From the IMG/VR virus record IMGVR_UViG_3300047276_000522, positions 1 through 23,416 of that record: a stretch of 23,416 bases of DNA. The stretch is one strand, 5' to 3'. The position numbers were made by a program, and so were the translations under genes. The notes under the pieces were generated by a model. It ran no database searches and had not been told where the DNA came from. It saw nothing but the letters and a program-made list of their open reading frames with translations. The stretch's first letter is position 1; each line of letters starts with the position of its first letter. Origin of the DNA: a virus. Below, one piece after another: positions 8,952 through 23,416 of the stretch.

Positions 8952-9545
8952 TCAATATTTACCCGAATTACGCAGGGCCTCCCATACGATGGCCTGGAAT
9001 TCGTAGCCCTTGAGCCCGACTTTTTTGGCCTCGTCAATAGTTATGCGCTCAAGTTCGCGGTACCTTTTCAGAGTCAAACCGGTTTCAATCGTCGCGCCGA
9101 AGCAGGCGCGCAGGTGCCATAGGTCAATCGTCACCTTCGTCTCGTCGAGCGCCCCGATATTGCGCACAAAGGCAAACGTTTTAGGGCTCGTCGCCGATAT
9201 CGTGAGTTCACCGCGGGCAATTGCGAACGCCTTGAACTTGTTAGCGTGGAACGTGCAAACCTTCACCTGCTCAGCAGGAACGCCCGCACGAACAGCCTTC
9301 AGCACCGACTCAGTGTCGATAATATTGCGCTCCCACTTATTGTTAGGGCTCAGCGCGCTGAGTATCTGAGCGACCCGCTCCGTCGTCGTATCGTATTGCG
9401 CAGCGTACCGGAGGCAAATATCGTGCGCAGCCTTGTACCACTTAGCGCCGTTGACTACGTCCGCCTCCGTTGCACTATTGAAAATTTCCCGAAGGTTAGC
9501 GCGCACCTTTGCTTTTTGGTACTTCGTTAGGGGCTTGAGTTTCAT
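8952..9545 (-). CDS. conserved phage protein of the SPNNKWERN type
   Basis: The gene encodes 197 residues. I recognise the conserved blocks AALSPNNKWERN-like (ILSALSPNNKWERNIID), VCTFHANKFKAF and VTIDLWHLRACFG as a phage family of unknown function (possibly DUF7178, from memory). The helical N-terminal region and the later IDLWHLR core are faintly reminiscent of helix-hairpin-helix DNA glycosylases, but no catalytic residue can be pointed to. It is the first gene of the leftward arm, directly behind the control region and a full early promoter. Confidence 0.75.
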   Translation of the reverse strand: MKLKPLTKYQKAKVRANLREIFNSATEADVVNGAKWYKAAHDICLRYAAQYDTTTERVAQILSALSPNNKWERNIIDTESVLKAVRAGVPAEQVKVCTFHANKFKAFAIARGELTISATSPKTFAFVRNIGALDETKVTIDLWHLRACFGATIETGLTLKRYRELERITIDEAKKVGLKGYEFQAIVWEALRNSGKY

Positions 9546-10918: not shown

Positions 10919-11308
10919 ATGAAAGCGAAGATGACTGTTTACCAGAAGGGAGGCAAAGCCCCGATCACTCCGGATCCTAAGAAGAAGGAGATGTACGAGC
11001 TTGGAAAGAAGCTGTTTGGTGAGATGCCTAAGTACAACAAGGAGGAGTTCCGTTACGGTATGATGGGCGAGAAGGTAAAGAACCTCCAGAAGGAGTACGA
11101 TTACTGGATCAAGAAGGGAGAGAAGACAGCTGCATCTGGCGTTAAGGTCCAGATGGACGCTGTCAAGGCTAAGATGGAAGATCTCAAGGGTAAGATCAAG
11201 CCTACTCCAGAAAAGAAGTCTATGTTTAAGGGCGGCGGCAAGATGAATGTTGCCGGAGCCACTAATGAAGATGTGTACCGCTATATGGGGTACGGTAAAA
11301 AGAAGTAA
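10919..11308 (+). CDS. Lys-rich protein with MKAK..YxxGG start
   Basis: The gene encodes 129 residues, very rich in Lys, Gly and Met. It begins MKAKMTVYQKGGKAP, has a helical middle (NLQKEYDYWIKKGEK, coiled-coil-like) and ends with MFKGGGKMNVAGATNEDVYRY and YGKKK. The start resembles those of the genes at 11495 and 11697. No known domain is seen. The basic character and late position suggest a DNA-associated or head-internal protein (inference). Confidence 0.7.
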   Translation: MKAKMTVYQKGGKAPITPDPKKKEMYELGKKLFGEMPKYNKEEFRYGMMGEKVKNLQKEYDYWIKKGEKTAASGVKVQMDAVKAKMEDLKGKIKPTPEKKSMFKGGGKMNVAGATNEDVYRYMGYGKKK

Positions 11309-11309
11309 G

Positions 11310-11498
11310 ATGGAAAACAAGTGGATTCAAAAAGCACTTGCTAAGCATAAGCCGGGCACGCTTCACAAGCAGCTCGGCGTTGCTATGGACAAAAAAATTC
11401 CTGTTGCTAAGCTTAATGAAGCAGCAAAGGAAAAAGGAAAGCTCGGGCAACGTGCTCGTCTTGCACTTACACTAAAGAAAATCTCTAAGAAGCGATGA
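11310..11498 (+). CDS. 62-residue basic protein of the PGTLHKQLG type
   Basis: The gene encodes MENKWIQKALAKHKPGTLHK followed by a QLG segment, an IPVAKLNEAAKEKGKLGQRA segment and a basic tail. I recognise the pattern from small late proteins of Bacteroidota phages, without a known function. The ATG at 11310 lies two bases after the upstream stop; the longer open frame upstream is a shadow of the preceding gene. Confidence 0.7.
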   Translation: MENKWIQKALAKHKPGTLHKQLGVAMDKKIPVAKLNEAAKEKGKLGQRARLALTLKKISKKR

Positions 11499-11677
11499 AA
11501 GCTAAAAAGTACAACTACGGAGGCAAGATGGAAGAGATGTCCGGCGAGGAGATCGAAATCAAGTCTATGGATATGGCCTCAGGAATGAAACAGCTAGAAG
11601 CAGCTGTTAAGGCATCGGGTAAGATGCCTACCAGCTTCAAGTTCAAGGCTTGTTTCTACGAAGAGAACGAAGATTAA
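11495..11677 (+). CDS. 60-residue protein with MKAKKYNYGG start
   Basis: The gene encodes MKAKKYNYGGKMEEMSGEEI and a mixed-charge remainder ending in CFYEENED. The N-terminus is shared with the gene at 11697. It is coupled to the upstream gene by an ATGA overlap. Function is unknown. Confidence 0.65.
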   Translation: MKAKKYNYGGKMEEMSGEEIEIKSMDMASGMKQLEAAVKASGKMPTSFKFKACFYEENED

Positions 11678-11696: not shown

Positions 11697-12260
11697 ATGA
11701 AAGCTAAGAAATACGCAAACGGAGGTCCTGTGGACCCCAAGAAGAAGAAAGCCGCTGCTGCTAAAGCAAAGACATCTTCGGCTTATGAAGCACGTCGTGC
11801 CGAATCTCGTAAGGAGCAAGAGGCTGGTGCTAACCTTACTCGCCGCCAGATGGAAATCAATAAGCGCGTACGTATGGAGCAGAACCCAGAAGCTTACAAC
11901 AGGGCTCTTGCTACAACTCCACAGTACAAACAAGTAAGTGGCCGTGCTCAAGGTATCTCTAGCGCTGAGATCAAGAGTGGTGCTCAAGGACCTGTTGGTG
12001 CAATGACTCCGGAAGCGGCAAAGAAGGCAGAAGCTCGTGCAACGAAGCCGTCTGTAACGGTTCAGTCTACGAAGGCTCCGGCTCCCGCTGTTAAGCCTGG
12101 AGAGCTTAAGCCGGAAACGAAGGCTGCAATCGAGAAAGGAAAGTCTCGTTCGGCAGAGCTCGGCAAGAAGTCAGCTGACTACACAATGGAGGAAGCCCGC
12201 CGTAAGGGTTGGCAACTCAAGAATGGTGGGTCGCTAGCAAAGATGCTGAAGCGCAAATAA
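11697..12260 (+). CDS. Ala/Lys-rich basic protein with MKAKKYANGG start
   Basis: The gene encodes 187 residues of low complexity, dominated by Ala, Lys and Glu with Pro-rich stretches (APAPAVKPGELKPETKAA), probably disordered or helical. It begins MKAKKYANGGPVDPKKKK and ends with GGSLAKMLKRK. The composition recalls histone-like or internal head proteins that accompany packaged DNA (inference). It is followed directly by a strong terminator. Confidence 0.7.
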   Translation: MKAKKYANGGPVDPKKKKAAAAKAKTSSAYEARRAESRKEQEAGANLTRRQMEINKRVRMEQNPEAYNRALATTPQYKQVSGRAQGISSAEIKSGAQGPVGAMTPEAAKKAEARATKPSVTVQSTKAPAPAVKPGELKPETKAAIEKGKSRSAELGKKSADYTMEEARRKGWQLKNGGSLAKMLKRK

Positions 12261-16009: not shown

Positions 16010-16588
16010 ATGAAACCACTATACCATATTTTGGTACACATCCCGTCGGCGGTTAACGATACGATGAAGGTCGGAGAGACCGAAATCTACGTAGATACCA
16101 AGTACAACGAGTTCCAGCATCGTACGATGAAGGCTAAAGTTGTAGGTGTTCCAGCTAAGTTTGACTCTCAGGTGGAGGTTGGTGACTATGTGTTCCACCA
16201 CCACCACGTAGCTATCAACGACAATCAGGTAATTGACCCAAAGGAGAAGATTTACCGCGTCAACTACGATCCGTTTGGCGGAAGCGCTAACCAAGCATAC
16301 CTGATTGAGAAGCCGGACGGCACACTACTAGCTGTAGCTGACTGGGTATTCCTTGAGCCTGTTGAGGAGGAGCCAGAGCTGAAGAGCGATGTTATCGAAT
16401 TAATTACGTTTAAGGAGCCCGAGAAGCGCTGGGGACGCATCGTATACGGTAGCCGTTGGATTGAAGAAGAGGGTCTCGCTGTTGGAGATGTCGTGTACTT
16501 TGCTAAGGACGCTGACTACGAGATGGACATCAATGGGCGCAAGCTGTGGCGTATGCAAATCCACCACATACTATGCGTAAAGAAGTAA
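16010..16588 (+). CDS. tandem GroES-like co-chaperonin
   Basis: The gene encodes 192 residues. The C-terminal half (about 125-192) matches the end of GroES: AVGDVVYFAKDADYEMDING followed by a beta strand and HHILCVK, parallel to the GDxVxFxKYAGTEVxxDG...DILAV pattern. The N-terminal half (1-117) has a second copy-like arrangement: PLYHILVHIP, a variable loop (21-40), KVVGVPAKF, VEVGDYVFHHHHV, ending DWVFLEPV. GroES has one domain of about 97 residues, so this is about twice the size, like chloroplast Cpn20. T4 gp31 is the known phage precedent: it caps GroEL to fold the capsid protein. The position just before the packaging genes fits that role. Confidence 0.65.
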   Translation: MKPLYHILVHIPSAVNDTMKVGETEIYVDTKYNEFQHRTMKAKVVGVPAKFDSQVEVGDYVFHHHHVAINDNQVIDPKEKIYRVNYDPFGGSANQAYLIEKPDGTLLAVADWVFLEPVEEEPELKSDVIELITFKEPEKRWGRIVYGSRWIEEEGLAVGDVVYFAKDADYEMDINGRKLWRMQIHHILCVKK

Positions 16589-16869
16589 AGTTCACCACTG
16601 CTCAGGCAGCGAAGAACCTTATCTCCGCTATGGAGGCTGCCATCCAGAATATGACCGAGGAGATTCGCAAGCCTGTGGACCCAGATCTTACTGGTTCTGC
16701 ACGTAAGGCGGAGCTTCAAGCTATTAAGGACACGGCACTCGCCTGTAAGGATCTTATTGTAGAGCGCCAGAAACTTGAACAGCTTATTGGTGACCTTCAG
16801 GAGTCTGGTGGATTCGAGGAGGAGAAGGACTTCAAGGGAGGATTTGCAGAACGAATGGCTAAGAAGTAA
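16573..16869 (+). CDS. small helical protein before TerL, candidate small terminase
   Basis: The gene encodes 98 residues from the ATG at 16573 (MRKEVKFTTAQAAKNLISAM), which overlaps the upstream gene by 16 bases; a start at 16546 is possible but embeds more of that gene. The protein is almost wholly helical with a coiled-coil-like C-terminal half (CKDLIVERQKLEQLIGDLQE). No helix-turn-helix is obvious. Its stop overlaps the TerL start as TAATG. A small-terminase role is inferred from position, not from sequence. Confidence 0.6.
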   Translation: MRKEVKFTTAQAAKNLISAMEAAIQNMTEEIRKPVDPDLTGSARKAELQAIKDTALACKDLIVERQKLEQLIGDLQESGGFEEEKDFKGGFAERMAKK

Positions 16870-18983
16870 TGGCAGGGCTGAAGATGATAGACGGCAAAGA
16901 GGTGGTGAACATCTGTCCCAATGGGTCGGATGGTCCCATCATTGAGATTGAGTCTATTCTGATTCAGCTGCCAGAGATACCTGAAGATATCCTATTCAAA
17001 AGTTTACCATTGGTGAACCAAAAGTGGCAAAGATTTGAATTGCCCAAGGAGCTTGCTCAGATCCAGAGTATGGACGACTGGTACGAGGCTCCGCGTGAGT
17101 TCCAACAGAAGTGGAACCCGTACATCGAAGAGGAGTTTCGCAGAAGGAGGGAGGGCCTTTGGTTTATGAACAAAGGCACCCCCACCTACATCACTGGCCA
17201 TCACTATATGTTCCTTCAGTGGAGCAAAATTGATATCGGATATCCGGGATACCTGGACTTCCAGAGGAAGCTCTTCACACACTTTGCAGCGTGCGAGGCT
17301 GATCCTCGGTGCCTTGGCCAGATATACACCAAGTGTCGACGCTCTGGATATACCAATATGAGCGCTGCTACGCTAGTGGACGAAGGCTCACAGGTTACGG
17401 AAAAGCTGTTGGGCATTATGAGTAAGACCGGTACGGACGCTCAGGAGGCGGTGTTTGGATCTAAGATCGTACCCATCTTCCGTAGCTACCCATTCTTCCT
17501 CAAGCCTATCCTTGATGGTACAACCAACCCACGTATGGAGCTTGCGTTCCGGGAGCCTGCTAAAAGGATTACCAAGAAGAACAAGACCTCTCACCGAGGT
17601 GAGGCACTGGATACCATCATAAACTGGAAGAACACAACCAACAACGCATACGACGGTAGCAAGACCCATATGTTGTTTCTCGATGAGGCAGGTAAGTGGT
17701 TGAGCCCTAATGATATACGAGAAGTGTGGCGCATTCACCGCACCTGTCTGTTGGTTGGACGTAGGGTTATTGGCAAGGCTATGGTCGGCTCTACAGTTAA
17801 TCCACTTGACAAAGGAGGCCGTGAATTCCGAGACCTATACTATGACTCAGACCCGAATGATCGCAACGAGAACGGACGTACCAAAAGTGGTCTATATAAA
17901 ATCTTTATTCCAGCTTATGAGGCGTTAGAGGGATTTTTTGACCAATATGGTATGCCTATTGTGGAAGACCCGGAGGAGCCCGTAATGACTGAGGACGGAA
18001 CGTTTACGTCGATAGGTGCGCGAACGTTCTTGAAGAATGAACGCAAGGGTCAACAGAACAACAGCTATGAACTTAACGAGATCATCCGTCAGTTCCCATT
18101 TACGGAGGACGAAGCGTTTCGTGATTCAACGAAGTCTTCGCTGTTCAACATCCAGAAGATCTACGAGCAGATTCAGCATAATGAGGAGCTGTTCCCTAAT
18201 CCTGTTATTATCGGCAACTTCCAGTGGAAGGATGGCAAGCCAGACACGGAGGTTGTATTTGCGCCCGATCCAAACGGGCGCTGGAGAGTAGCTTGGCTTG
18301 CTCCTCCAGACATTCGAAATAAACGAAAGACTGAGAACAACAAGCTAGTGGCTCCAAACTCTGCGTTTGGCGTGATGGGGGTTGACTCCTATGACCTTGA
18401 TGCCACGGTCGACAACCGGGCATCGAAGGGTGCTTGCCACATCTATAACAAGTTTTCGATGGAGCATCCCGCGAATATGTTCGTTGCAGAATACGCTAGT
18501 CGTCCGCCACTTGCGAAGATTTTCTACGAGGATGTGCTGATGGCTGCTGTTTTTTATGGGTACCCTGTGCTGATAGAAAACAACAAGTATGGGATCGCCC
18601 GGTATTTTGAGTCGAGAGGGTACGATGAATATTTAATGGATCGTCCCGCACATTTGGCAACGACGGCGATGAAGACTAGCGTAAAAACTAAAGGTATCCC
18701 ATCAAACAGCCAGGACGTAATACAAGCTCACGCTCAGGCAATTGAGGCGTACATACACGACCACGTAGGCATAAATAACGAGACTGGTCATTTCGGGCGT
18801 ATGTATTTTAACCGAACATTAGAGGACTGGATTAACTTTAAGATTGACGATCGAACCAAGTTTGACTTGACGATTTCGTCCGGATTAGCACTTCTCGCAG
18901 CACAAAAACAAGTAAAGCAGGTCAAGAAGGTAGACTTCAATGACAAGGTTTTCTTCCGCAAGGGTAAGGAAATTACGCGCTAA
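16869..18983 (+). CDS. terL: terminase large subunit
   Basis: The gene encodes 704 residues with ATPase and nuclease domains of the phage packaging motor. The adenine/Walker-A-like segment is KCRRSGYT (155-162), a degenerate form, Walker B is MLFLDE (268-273) and the coupling motif is GST (307-309). The RNase-H-like nuclease shows D506 in MGVDSYDLD, E570 in VLIENNKYG and D666 in FDLTISSG. The start WFMNKGTPTYITGHHYMFLQ recalls TerL of crAss-like and related Bacteroidota phages. It translocates DNA into proheads and cuts the concatemer. It lies between the possible small terminase and the portal, the usual order. Confidence 0.93.
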   Translation: MAGLKMIDGKEVVNICPNGSDGPIIEIESILIQLPEIPEDILFKSLPLVNQKWQRFELPKELAQIQSMDDWYEAPREFQQKWNPYIEEEFRRRREGLWFMNKGTPTYITGHHYMFLQWSKIDIGYPGYLDFQRKLFTHFAACEADPRCLGQIYTKCRRSGYTNMSAATLVDEGSQVTEKLLGIMSKTGTDAQEAVFGSKIVPIFRSYPFFLKPILDGTTNPRMELAFREPAKRITKKNKTSHRGEALDTIINWKNTTNNAYDGSKTHMLFLDEAGKWLSPNDIREVWRIHRTCLLVGRRVIGKAMVGSTVNPLDKGGREFRDLYYDSDPNDRNENGRTKSGLYKIFIPAYEALEGFFDQYGMPIVEDPEEPVMTEDGTFTSIGARTFLKNERKGQQNNSYELNEIIRQFPFTEDEAFRDSTKSSLFNIQKIYEQIQHNEELFPNPVIIGNFQWKDGKPDTEVVFAPDPNGRWRVAWLAPPDIRNKRKTENNKLVAPNSAFGVMGVDSYDLDATVDNRASKGACHIYNKFSMEHPANMFVAEYASRPPLAKIFYEDVLMAAVFYGYPVLIENNKYGIARYFESRGYDEYLMDRPAHLATTAMKTSVKTKGIPSNSQDVIQAHAQAIEAYIHDHVGINNETGHFGRMYFNRTLEDWINFKIDDRTKFDLTISSGLALLAAQKQVKQVKKVDFNDKVFFRKGKEITR

Positions 18984-19017: not shown

Positions 19018-21477
19018 ATGGATCAATACTCAGTTAAAAGCAACGGATACGATTCTACGTTCCCCGATCCGCTAGCTTCCCACGAGGTAAAAGCTAGCAA
19101 AGGATACGGCCTGCAATATGCAAAGGCTATTTACGGCCAGTGGGGTAGTGCCCAGTGGGAGGGCTCACTTTACAGCAAGCGCTGGAAGGAGTTCGAAATC
19201 TCACGCGACTACGCCAACGGTACGCAAGATACTTCTATCTACAAGCAAATCCTTACGTCTCTTGACCCGAACAATGGTGACGGCTCACTGGTAAACCTTG
19301 ACTGGACTCCGGTACCCATCATTCCTAAGTTCGTTAAGATTGTAGTGAATAAGATTCTTTCGGCTAAGTTCTATCCTAACCTCGAGGCTATTGATCCGTT
19401 GAGCCGCAGCGAGAAGGATATCGAAAAGAACAAGGTCAAGATCTTCATTGAGAACAAAGACGTACTGAAAGAAGCCAAGGAAAGCGGACTGCGCACTGAG
19501 GTTGACCCGGACGCTTTACCTGACACTGCTGAAGAGGCAGAGATTTTCCTTGAGACTAACGTGAAGACTGCGGCCGAGATTGCTGCACAGATTGGTACGA
19601 ACCTTACGTTGAGCTGGAACGACTTCGACGAGAAGATCTTCCGTCGTAACGTAGAGGACCTAGTTAGCTGCGGTATGGCTGTTGTCAAGCGCAGTAACGA
19701 CCCGAACTACGGCATTGTAGAGGAATATGTAGATCCTGCATATTTCATCCACAGCTTCACCGATGACCCCACGTTTAGCGATATCACCTACGCAGGTCAT
19801 ATGAAGCGTATGAGCATCGCTGAGCTCAAGCGTCTTGCTGGTGATCAGTTCACGGAAGCTCAGTACGAGAATATGGCTCGTACGGTTATGAATCGTTTTG
19901 GTAACGATCCTAACCGCTTTATGAACTCGCAGTACGACGTGGGTATGGAGCGCTACTACTACGGTTACGACGAGTACACCATTGACGTGATGGACTTCGA
20001 GTTCGTAAGTGTAGACAACATCATCTTCGAGAAGAAGGAGTCTCGCTTTGGTAACGTAGGCTTTTATTTTAAGGGCCACAAGTACAACGCACCTCAGCAG
20101 AGCGTATACGACCGCGAGGCTGTTTATATGCAAAACCAGACGCTGTACGGTGGTAAGTTCATCGTGGGCACGGAGTACATCTTCGACTACGGTGTGAAGA
20201 AGAACATCCCGAAGAACGTACACGACCTGACTCGTACCCGGATGAGCTACAGTGCTGTGGCTACGAATATGCGCCGGATGATCCCGAAGTCAATGGTAAG
20301 TTCTGTTATAGGCTTTGCTGACCAAATCCAGATCACCCACCTGAAGCTTCAACAGTCTATCGCTAAGGCTAAGCCTGATGGATTGATTGTAGACATTGAG
20401 GGACTGGAGAACGTACAGCTCGGTCGTGGCGGAGAACTCCAGCCTTTGGATATCCAAGACATCTACGAGCAGACCGGTGTGTTCTACTACCGCAGTAAGA
20501 ACCCTGATGGTAGCTTCCAGAATCCGCCTATCCGTCCGTTGGACAATGCGATTCGCAACATCAACGAGCTCATCACCATCTATAACCACGCACTGCGTAT
20601 GATTCGTGATGCTACGGGTATCAACGAAGTGATGGATGGTTCTAGTCCTAAAGGCGATCAGCTAGTTGGCGTGCGCCAGCAGCAACTTGCAGCAGCCAAC
20701 AACGCTCTATACGACATCACTAATGCCTCTATGGTTCTGTATCGTAAGGTCTGTGAGGACGTTGTCAAGTGCTTGCAGATTCTACCTCCAAAGTCTATTC
20801 TGTACCGTGCGTACGAAACGGCTATTGGACGCGAGAATATGGCTGTACTGACGAGCTTCGCTAAGCTTCCGATGTACAACTTCGGAGTGCGTGTGGTTAC
20901 CGATATGAACGAGGTAGACCGTATGTACCTTGAGCAGAACATCCAAGCGTCTATCGCTGCGGGTGAGCTTGACATTGAGGACGCTATGGCTATCCGTCAG
21001 TTGCGTGATATCGACCAGGCCGAGCGACTGCTGATTGTGCGCCGTAAGAAGCGCATCAAGCAGCGTCAGGAGATGGCCCAGCAGAATTCTCAGTTCCAAG
21101 CTCAGGCTAACGCTCAGGTGGCTCAAGTTACCAGCCAAGCTAAGATGCAGGAGGAGCAGATGAAGGCTCAGCTTGAGCAGCAGCGCATCCAACTCGAGGC
21201 CGCTGCAAAGGCGGAGCTGTTGAAGGTTGAATACAACTTAAAGATGGAGCTTGCTAAGATCCAGGGTGACTACGGAATTAAGGAGCAAGAGATTGAGTCC
21301 GGTGTCCGTCAGAACGCTGAGAAGGAGGCTGAGGATCGCAAGGATGAGCGCATTAAGGAGCAAGCAGTTGCCCAAAGCAAACTGATTGCTCAACGTAAAG
21401 GTGAGCGTCCTGAACTAAACAAAGAAGACCTTAAGGAAGAGGAGGACATCGTATCTCTCATCTTAGGTGGTAGCTGA
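19018..21477 (+). CDS. portal protein
   Basis: The gene encodes 819 residues. The N-terminal part holds the wing and clip region with NLDWTPVPIIPKFVKIVVNK (residues about 97-120), a block I associate with portals of crAss-like phages. Residues 500-600 include RNINELITIYNHALRMIRDA and a DGSSPKGDQLVGVRQQQLAA stretch typical of the stem and crown. The last 140 residues (from about 676) are a long Gln/Glu/Lys coiled coil, usual for this portal type. It forms the dodecameric ring at the capsid vertex that docks TerL. The call rests on family memory, size and order. Confidence 0.88.
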   Translation: MDQYSVKSNGYDSTFPDPLASHEVKASKGYGLQYAKAIYGQWGSAQWEGSLYSKRWKEFEISRDYANGTQDTSIYKQILTSLDPNNGDGSLVNLDWTPVPIIPKFVKIVVNKILSAKFYPNLEAIDPLSRSEKDIEKNKVKIFIENKDVLKEAKESGLRTEVDPDALPDTAEEAEIFLETNVKTAAEIAAQIGTNLTLSWNDFDEKIFRRNVEDLVSCGMAVVKRSNDPNYGIVEEYVDPAYFIHSFTDDPTFSDITYAGHMKRMSIAELKRLAGDQFTEAQYENMARTVMNRFGNDPNRFMNSQYDVGMERYYYGYDEYTIDVMDFEFVSVDNIIFEKKESRFGNVGFYFKGHKYNAPQQSVYDREAVYMQNQTLYGGKFIVGTEYIFDYGVKKNIPKNVHDLTRTRMSYSAVATNMRRMIPKSMVSSVIGFADQIQITHLKLQQSIAKAKPDGLIVDIEGLENVQLGRGGELQPLDIQDIYEQTGVFYYRSKNPDGSFQNPPIRPLDNAIRNINELITIYNHALRMIRDATGINEVMDGSSPKGDQLVGVRQQQLAAANNALYDITNASMVLYRKVCEDVVKCLQILPPKSILYRAYETAIGRENMAVLTSFAKLPMYNFGVRVVTDMNEVDRMYLEQNIQASIAAGELDIEDAMAIRQLRDIDQAERLLIVRRKKRIKQRQEMAQQNSQFQAQANAQVAQVTSQAKMQEEQMKAQLEQQRIQLEAAAKAELLKVEYNLKMELAKIQGDYGIKEQEIESGVRQNAEKEAEDRKDERIKEQAVAQSKLIAQRKGERPELNKEDLKEEEDIVSLILGGS

Positions 21478-21872: not shown

Positions 21873-22192
21873 GTGCAATTGTAGTACGCGAAGCTGCGAA
21901 TAATGTAACGGTAACTGAAGTCCAGGGCACCACGTTGGTGGCCAACCAAAAGGGCAACACAGTTACTGTTACTGGCGTTATTGGCGGCGTAAGCCTTGAC
22001 GCTAACTATGTTTTCACTCAGTCCGTCCCGTCTTCCGAATGGGTTGTGACACACAACCTCAACAAGTATTGCTCCGTTACTGTTGTCGACTCTGCCGATA
22101 ACATCGTAGTAGGAGAAGTTTTATATAATTCACTGAACCAAGTAACACTAACATTCGCTGGTGCATTCAGCGGAAAAGCATTCTTTAACTGA
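21869..22192 (+). CDS. small fibre-associated beta protein
   Basis: The gene encodes 107 residues from the ATG at 21869, chosen for the ATGA overlap with the previous gene. The N-terminal half consists of short Val/Thr repeats (NNVTVTEVQGTTLVAN). The C-terminal half VPSSEWVVTHNLNKYCSVTV, VVDSADNIVVGEV and FSGKAFFN is the adaptor-type domain found at the end or start of many phage tail fibres. It probably links the baseplate protein to the fibre. Confidence 0.7.
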   Translation: MSAIVVREAANNVTVTEVQGTTLVANQKGNTVTVTGVIGGVSLDANYVFTQSVPSSEWVVTHNLNKYCSVTVVDSADNIVVGEVLYNSLNQVTLTFAGAFSGKAFFN

Positions 22193-23416
22193 TGGCTATT
22201 AAGTTCGTATCCTCCATTAACCTAAATCAGAATGAGCTGCAAAATGCAGTCATTCAAAACTTGGCTTCGGCACCCGGAAGCCCGGTAGAGGGACAAGTTT
22301 ACTACGACTCCTCCGCGGGTGATAAGTCGATTTACTTCTGGGACGGAACCCAGTGGGTTGACGTAGGTGGTGACATCCGCAGCGTAACCGCTGGTGCTGG
22401 TCTTACTTCTACTGGAACTCGTGACATCACGCTAAACGTAGGAGCCGGAACCGGTATTGCTGTTGGTACAGACACCGTATCTCTTAGCCACCTCGGTCTT
22501 GAGAGTCTTACAGATCCTAACGCTGACCGTATCTTCTTCTGGGATGATTCAGCTGGCGCTTCTCAGTGGCTTGAGGTTTCTACTTCTACGGGTATCAATA
22601 TCAGCGGTACTACCCTCCAGCTTGGTTCTATCCCCAACAGCTCACTCGCTAACTCAAGTGTAACCTACACCGCTGGTGCTGGTTTGACTGGTGGAGGAAC
22701 TGTTGCTCTTGGTGCAAGCGCTACGCTTACTGTTGGTGCTGGTACGGGTATCACCGTTAATGCTGACGACGTAGCCCTTAAGAATGCTGGTTCACTAACC
22801 AACAATAACGTAGTTAAGTGGGATTCCGGTAACGGACAGCTCACCAACTCGCTTATTACAGATGACGGCACCACTGTAACGATTGCTGGTAACCTTGACG
22901 TAAACGGAACGACTACCACCATCGACAGCACGATTGTTTCCATTGGTGACAATATGATGCAGTACGCCAACGCCAACGTGGCAAACAGCGTCGACATCGG
23001 TTTCTACGGCAACTACGTCAACAGCGGAACTAAGTACGCATCGTTTTTCTACGACGCATCTGCGAGCTCTGTAAGCGAGGCTGTCTTCACTTTGGGACAC
23101 ACGTCTACCGAGCCTGGTTCAACGGTATCAGGGCTCACCGTAGGCCGTCTTGTTGCTAACATTACTGGTGAGGTTACTGGTAATGCAGCCACTGCAACCA
23201 AGCTTGCTACTGCACGAGATATCACAATCACGGGCGATGCAAGCTGGACGGTAAGCTTTGATGGAAGCGCCAATGTTAGCTCTGGTTTGACGCTTGCTAA
23301 CAGCGGTGTTACTGCTGCTACGTACGGTACTGCTTCTAGCGTTGCTCAAGTAACGTTTGACGCTAAGGGTCGCGCTACGAGCGCAAGCTCTGTTGCGATT
23401 GCTATTACGGCATCGC
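22192..23416 (+). CDS. tail fibre protein, cut by the window edge
   Basis: The frame opens at the ATG overlapping the previous stop (TGATG) and stays open for 408 codons to the end. The N-terminus (MAIKFVSSINLNQNELQNAV) leads into a beta module with VYYDSSAGDKSIYFWDGTQW. Repeats of the AGAGLTGGGTVALG and GAGTGITV type and DRIFFWDDSAGASQWLEV follow. Next comes NLDVNGTTTTIDSTIVSIGD, a block shared with fibres of marine phages. The last part is Thr/Ser/Ala-rich and repetitive. It would form an extended trimeric fibre; the receptor-binding tip lies beyond the window. Confidence 0.85.
   Translation, partial: MAIKFVSSINLNQNELQNAVIQNLASAPGSPVEGQVYYDSSAGDKSIYFWDGTQWVDVGGDIRSVTAGAGLTSTGTRDITLNVGAGTGIAVGTDTVSLSHLGLESLTDPNADRIFFWDDSAGASQWLEVSTSTGINISGTTLQLGSIPNSSLANSSVTYTAGAGLTGGGTVALGASATLTVGAGTGITVNADDVALKNAGSLTNNNVVKWDSGNGQLTNSLITDDGTTVTIAGNLDVNGTTTTIDSTIVSIGDNMMQYANANVANSVDIGFYGNYVNSGTKYASFFYDASASSVSEAVFTLGHTSTEPGSTVSGLTVGRLVANITGEVTGNAATATKLATARDITITGDASWTVSFDGSANVSSGLTLANSGVTAATYGTASSVAQVTFDAKGRATSASSVAIAITAS

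Follow-up and report, generated by a model that had tools for sequence, protein, structure and literature searches.

A conserved gene ahead of the terminase

The window (the whole stretch of DNA analysed here, a 23,416-base IMG/VR viral fragment) contains an open reading frame (ORF) encoding 192 amino acids close upstream of a terminase gene. It raises two questions: whether both halves of the product are GroES-type co-chaperonin domains, as a preliminary description proposed, and what a chain with two such domains would do in a phage. The features of the locus, with coordinates in the window and strand, are as follows.

16010..16588, +, tandem GroES-type co-chaperonin gene (192-aa ORF)
16010..16318, +, N-terminal domain with a predicted GroES fold, residues about 1-103 (model of residues 1-118 alone, PDB match, and profile matches)
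16043..16132, +, putative GroEL-binding mobile loop of the N-half, residues 12-41, ..KVGETEIYVDTKYNEF.., to be compared with GGIVLTG of GroES (placed by alignments)
16295..16333, +, inter-domain beta-hairpin AYLIEKPDGTLLA, residues 96-108, between the last strand of domain 1 and the first of domain 2 (model strands E96-100 and E106-108)
16325..16585, +, C-terminal GroES-fold domain, residues about 106-192 (Pfam, profile, and structure matches)
16364..16432, +, putative mobile loop of the C-half, residues 119-141, ..LKSDVIELITFKEPEKRW.., a low-confidence stretch of the model (pLDDT 51-56) that is probably flexible
16573..16869, +, small downstream gene annotated without a function, listed from a GTG at 16546; an ATG near 16573, read from the sequence, overlaps the end of the co-chaperonin gene
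16869..18983, +, terminase large subunit (phrog_6681, E 5e-195)
19018..21477, +, portal protein (phrog_6547, E 5e-186)

The ORF at 16010-16588 is a genuine gene under strong purifying selection, because relatives that are 81-98% identical in protein differ from it mostly at silent sites (dN/dS 0.02-0.06). The gene order in the window is co-chaperonin, small gene, terminase large subunit, and portal, so that the gene adjoins the terminase as described previously, with one small gene between. This position is kept by the orthologues, which immediately precede the large terminase gene or are separated from it by one small gene in Cellulophaga phages phi18:3 and phi38:1, Flavobacterium elemo phages, Maribacter phage Panino, and the uncultured phage MW202828, and in every lineage examined the tandem gene stands between the lysis/structural genes and the terminase-portal genes.

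Elsewhere in the window, three small, lysine-rich ORFs (10919-11308, 11495-11677, and 11697-12260), none with a PHROG match, have similar starts (MKAKMTVYQKGGK, MKAKKYNYGGK, and MKAKKYANGGP), with 79% identity over 29 nt at the start of the latter two; these may reflect a common N-terminal signal or a duplicated gene. The minus-strand gene at 8952-9545 codes for a DUF7178/phrog_3842 protein (Pfam E 1e-33, PHROG E 2e-38), and the plus-strand ORF at 22192-23416, which extends past the end of the window, is a fibre-like or head-decoration-like mosaic in which different short segments match many PHROG structural families.

Two predicted GroES-fold domains in one chain

The C-terminal half is recognizably GroES-like. 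Pfam Cpn10 (PF00166) matches residues 110-190 just below its cutoff (E 0.0011, 19.4 bits versus 21.1), and four orthologues score above it (L130, 46.3 bits; phi18:3, 33.3 bits; phi38:1, 24.1 bits; and L127, 22.6 bits). A PDB search with a profile built from 22 C-halves matches bacterial GroES (E 1e-9), and the C-half of the full-length model aligns with single GroES structures at Z scores up to 9.3 and with T4 gp31 at 7.2 to 8.0. The two motifs singled out earlier as GroES-like strands, VEVGDYVF and HHILCVK, are present at residues 55-62 and 185-191, respectively. The division into two halves also stands, but the proposed split at residues 120/121 falls slightly late, as the first strand of the C-half occupies about residues 105-117.

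Assignment of the N-half to GroES is of moderate strength and comes from profile comparisons together with a predicted fold whose Z scores are below 7. In the window protein this half has no Pfam or NCBIfam GroES match and no PDB sequence match, as might be expected if the C-half alone were GroES and the N-half an unrelated beta domain. However, its profile aligns with that of the C-half (hhalign with non-overlapping segments; score 27.5, E 1.4e-4) well above the best of 60 column shuffles (13.9), and, from residue 1, with a profile of single-domain GroES from phages and E. coli (score 28.6, E 1e-4; best of 50 shuffles, 21.6). When residues 1-118 are predicted alone (pLDDT 78.7), the 15 best structural matches are all GroES or Cpn10 (Z 5.4-6.8), followed by the GroES-like domains of alcohol dehydrogenases at Z 4.1 and below, and the single confident Foldseek match is GroES (probability 0.99, next 0.18 or less). 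The earlier claim that the N-half repeats the GroES layout is thus borne out by both approaches. With a Cpn10 hit in the C-half and a GroES-like fold predicted for the N-half, neither of the two outcomes named as speaking against the preliminary description was seen, and the reading with one GroES domain and an unrelated N-half, which is also at odds with a whole-protein structural match spanning both halves (see below), was dropped as very improbable.

In the AlphaFold2 model of the full-length protein (pLDDT 80.7), the chain is two GroES-fold domains joined head to tail. The best PDB match to this model is Chlamydomonas Cpn20 (7ekq_R; Z 10.6, with 166 residues aligned across model residues 3-192 and both domains; Foldseek E 4.7e-4), and the structural matches ranking below it are single GroES chains on the C-half. 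Among viral structures, the best match is the 'Chaperonin cpn10' of Cellulophaga phage phi18:3 (E 2.5e-14). Like chloroplast and apicoplast Cpn20 (Cpn21), the phage protein has two GroES-like domains per chain, a layout familiar chiefly from chloroplasts, but its C-half profile is far nearer to bacterial GroES than to Cpn20 (E 0.07), suggesting from sequence that the phage tandem and Cpn20 arose independently. By the same comparison, the phage tandem would work like Cpn20 but is not a member of the Cpn20 family.

The two domains are connected by a tight turn, short in all relatives, from the last strand of domain 1 (AYLIE, residues 96-100) to the first strand of domain 2 (residues 106-117). 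Within a GroES ring, adjacent subunits pair through strands, the first of one with the last of the next; the simplest reading of the fusion is therefore that it links two such neighbours, as Cpn20 does. This side-by-side geometry is read from a monomer model and is to be taken as a prediction. On balance, the protein is probably a Cpn20-like lid for host GroEL that acts in late virion assembly, supplies two ring positions per chain, and has an open roof.

Putative mobile loops and the roof

Both halves have a loop of the right length at the GroES mobile-loop position (EIYVDT and VIELIT, compared with GGIVLT), although that of the C-half does not have the canonical GG-I-V-L tripeptide. The two loops and the inter-domain hairpin are conserved within the window clade. 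The N-half loop is retained in nearly all relatives (GGIEFIVST in MW202828-like proteins and GLILNVS in elemo) and is less clear in phi38:1. The C-half loop is more variable: it measures 23-26 residues in the window, L121, L077, phi18:3, and phi38:1 proteins, and 16-18 residues without a hydrophobic triplet in the MW202828-like, elemo, and Panino proteins. The shortened form is seen only in GroEL-carrying phages. A reciprocal rule, that a phage with its own GroEL has lost the C-half loop, was dropped, as the C-half loop of phi38:1 is full-length although this phage has both a GroEL and a single GroES; the relation holds in one direction and is based on few independent events.

The segment from strand 2 to the GD turn, which forms the roof, spans 8-11 residues in most relatives versus about 17 in E. 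coli GroES, and each half of the window protein has a roof at least 7 residues shorter than that of E. coli GroES; in L129/L130 the N-half segment is longer, at 16 residues. The protein thus shares with bacterial GroES (Cpn10, PF00166) a predicted beta-barrel fold, the GD-x-V strand, the loop position, and the last strand, but differs in its tandem form, its missing roof loop, and its weak sequence similarity. The missing roof loops also distinguish it from Cpn20 and are shared with T4 gp31, likewise a phage gene product with the GroES fold, although gp31 is a single-domain protein that forms a heptamer whereas the window chain has two domains. Gp31 works with host GroEL, and its missing roof loops are thought to help folding of the large capsid protein gp23 (PMC6318259).

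These features could alternatively fit a two-tier lid of seven tandems, in which a ring of N-domains binds GroEL and the C-domains are stacked above it as an upper tier, enlarging the chamber. In its favour, the MW202828-like, elemo, and Panino proteins dispense with the C-half loop yet keep the C-half fold, and neither half has a roof loop. The two-tier arrangement is nonetheless unlikely, since the full model aligns across both domains with Cpn20, in which the domains lie side by side, and the tight hairpin linker fits neighbouring positions of one ring.

A family of aquatic Bacteroidota phages

PHROG 13932 ('co-chaperonin GroES', 200 positions) matches residues 1-190 over profile positions 1-198 (E 2.2e-26), and homologous proteins of 180-200 aa occur in about 85 public phage records (Flavobacterium elemo, Cellulophaga and Maribacter phages, and MW202828), most of them labelled co-chaperonin GroES or cpn10. 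Relatives are also found in hundreds of environmental contigs. The assertion that known phage co-chaperonins have one domain is therefore incorrect, and the tandem family, which belongs to phages of aquatic Bacteroidota, is little noticed but already annotated (PHROG 13932 and RefSeq names) and so is not a new protein family. In MW202828.1, the tandem GroES gene (31782-32345) is labelled as a hypothetical protein, while its neighbours are named chaperonin 10 and groEL. The tandem architecture, the likeness to Cpn20, and the varied chaperonin gene content described below appear undescribed within the literature searched; no description of a tandem phage co-chaperonin was found there, although coverage of papers on viral chaperonins and Cellulophaga phages was partial and an earlier description is possible.

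The named PHROG 13932 relatives (phi18:3 gp096, phi38:1 gp089, elemo gp33, and the Panino protein) are of similar length and occupy the same place as the window protein but are only 20-30% identical to it. In phage Gundel_1, whose terminase is related, no gene of GroES size is annotated ahead of the terminase. Relatives of the tandem were not found in the bacterial genomes searched, and a prophage or chromosomal origin is thus unsupported at that sensitivity.

Chaperonin genes in different lineages

Whole records were scanned with Cpn60 and Cpn10 models. The window, L121, and L077 clades yielded no Cpn60/GroEL in 17 records and, in the 10 of these that were searched for one, no second GroES. 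Two near-complete window-clade contigs, G001 (59.4 kb) and G003 (59.7 kb), have no end overlap in a terminal-repeat test but are circularly offset by about 23.5 kb, each with its breakpoint inside the other; together they should cover a genome of about 61 kb, and the absence of GroEL from the clade is well supported. As the window is a fragment, we infer from its clade that the window phage likewise has no GroEL. The L077/L129 contig IMGVR_UViG_3300029309_000019 (64,677 bases) has a 19-base exact overlap between its ends and may be a complete circular genome.

Other lineages carry additional chaperonin genes. Phages of the phi18:3 type have the tandem and a separate single-domain GroES, with GroEL not found, whereas the MW202828-like, elemo, Panino, and phi38:1 phages have the tandem, a separate GroES, and their own GroEL. 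The separate GroES and GroEL genes form an operon in MW202828 and elemo, and GroEL is present in 16 of the 19 MW202828-like or elemo records, the remaining three being fragments of 30-42 kb with short-loop tandems. Compact phage groES-groEL operons are seen in L253, L255, MW202828.1 (40671-42561), and NC_055852.1 (25450-27263). The closest PDB match of the MW202828 GroEL is a reconstructed ancestral chaperonin of the Fibrobacteres-Chlorobi-Bacteroidetes group, which suggests capture from a Bacteroidota-type host. In a terminase tree, the GroEL carriers form two supported groups (MW202828-like; and elemo, Panino, and phi38:1), and the window, L121, and L077 clades form a third. The backbone of this tree is unresolved, so the order of GroEL gain or loss cannot be read from it, but the tandem occurs in all compared lineages and is thus the fixed component of a chaperonin kit that otherwise varies.

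The separate GroES in five or six groups (MW202828-like, elemo, Panino, phi38:1, and phi18:3) makes a mixed lid worth taking seriously there, with three tandems and one single GroES (the host's in the window clade, the phage's in sister lineages) giving seven domains. For a hetero-ring with the host protein, as suggested in the preliminary description, chloroplast Cpn20 and Cpn10 provide a precedent, as seven-domain hetero-rings of the two have been reported (PMC5780408). Still, in the window clade and two further clades the tandem occurs alone, so that a hetero-ring would need a host partner; the loss of the C-half loop in three groups would leave few loops in such a ring; and lids need not have seven domains, as Cpn20 homo-oligomers and concatemers of 6 or 8 domains function with seven-fold GroEL (PMC5780408, PMC3542282). 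Given the homo-oligomer and hetero-ring precedents, a homo-lid is mechanically plausible and so is a hetero-ring, whether the single GroES comes from host or phage; the hetero-ring is a possible but rather unlikely general form.

A proposed lid for host GroEL

A Cpn20-like homo-lid on host GroEL would operate as follows. One chain would supply two adjacent positions in the lid ring, and the mobile loops, of both halves in the window clade, would dock on the apical domains of GroEL, which is taken to be the host's because no chaperonin gene was found in the window phage or its close relatives. During late virion assembly, the lid would then shut phage proteins inside the cage, and with the roof loops absent its dome would be more open, as might suit a large substrate; the major capsid protein is a candidate suggested by gene position and by analogy with gp31. 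GroEL binding, the geometry and stoichiometry of the ring, and the substrate are all parts of this reading that we infer.

A different role, in which the protein has ceased to serve as a GroEL lid and instead caps a different ring machine such as host ClpP, or acts as a packaging accessory, is brought to mind by the best structural match, which comes from an algal Cpn11/20/23 complex on chloroplast ClpP, and by the linkage of the tandem to the terminase rather than to a phage groES-groEL operon. The conservation of GroES-like mobile loops in the window clade and the co-occurrence of the tandem with chaperonin genes in several lineages make this quite improbable, and Cpn20 itself has also been proven to work with GroEL, both in vitro and in E. 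coli (PMC3542282, PMC5780408).

Implications for chaperonin symmetry

More broadly, and tentatively, since this is a proposal that we hold to be somewhat less than evenly likely, phages of aquatic Bacteroidota may have independently evolved a Cpn20-like double lid as the core of a modular chaperonin kit, used with host GroEL alone, with an added phage GroES, or with a full phage groES-groEL. An even-numbered lid (6 or 8 domains, or 3x2+1) would then make a deliberately asymmetric cage, and the C-domain loop would be in the course of being lost where the phage supplies the chaperonin. How a double-domain co-chaperonin fits a seven-fold chaperonin is an unsolved 'symmetry dilemma' in chloroplasts (PMC5780408). 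With an apparently independent second origin in phages of cultured hosts (Flavobacterium sp. BAL314, Cellulophaga baltica, and Maribacter), the question becomes testable, including whether a lid with an even number of domains, or a hetero-ring, provides big capsid proteins with a larger or an asymmetric cage. The phages offer a natural series for comparison, from the tandem only to the tandem with a single GroES and then with both a single GroES and GroEL, with the C-half loop kept or lost.
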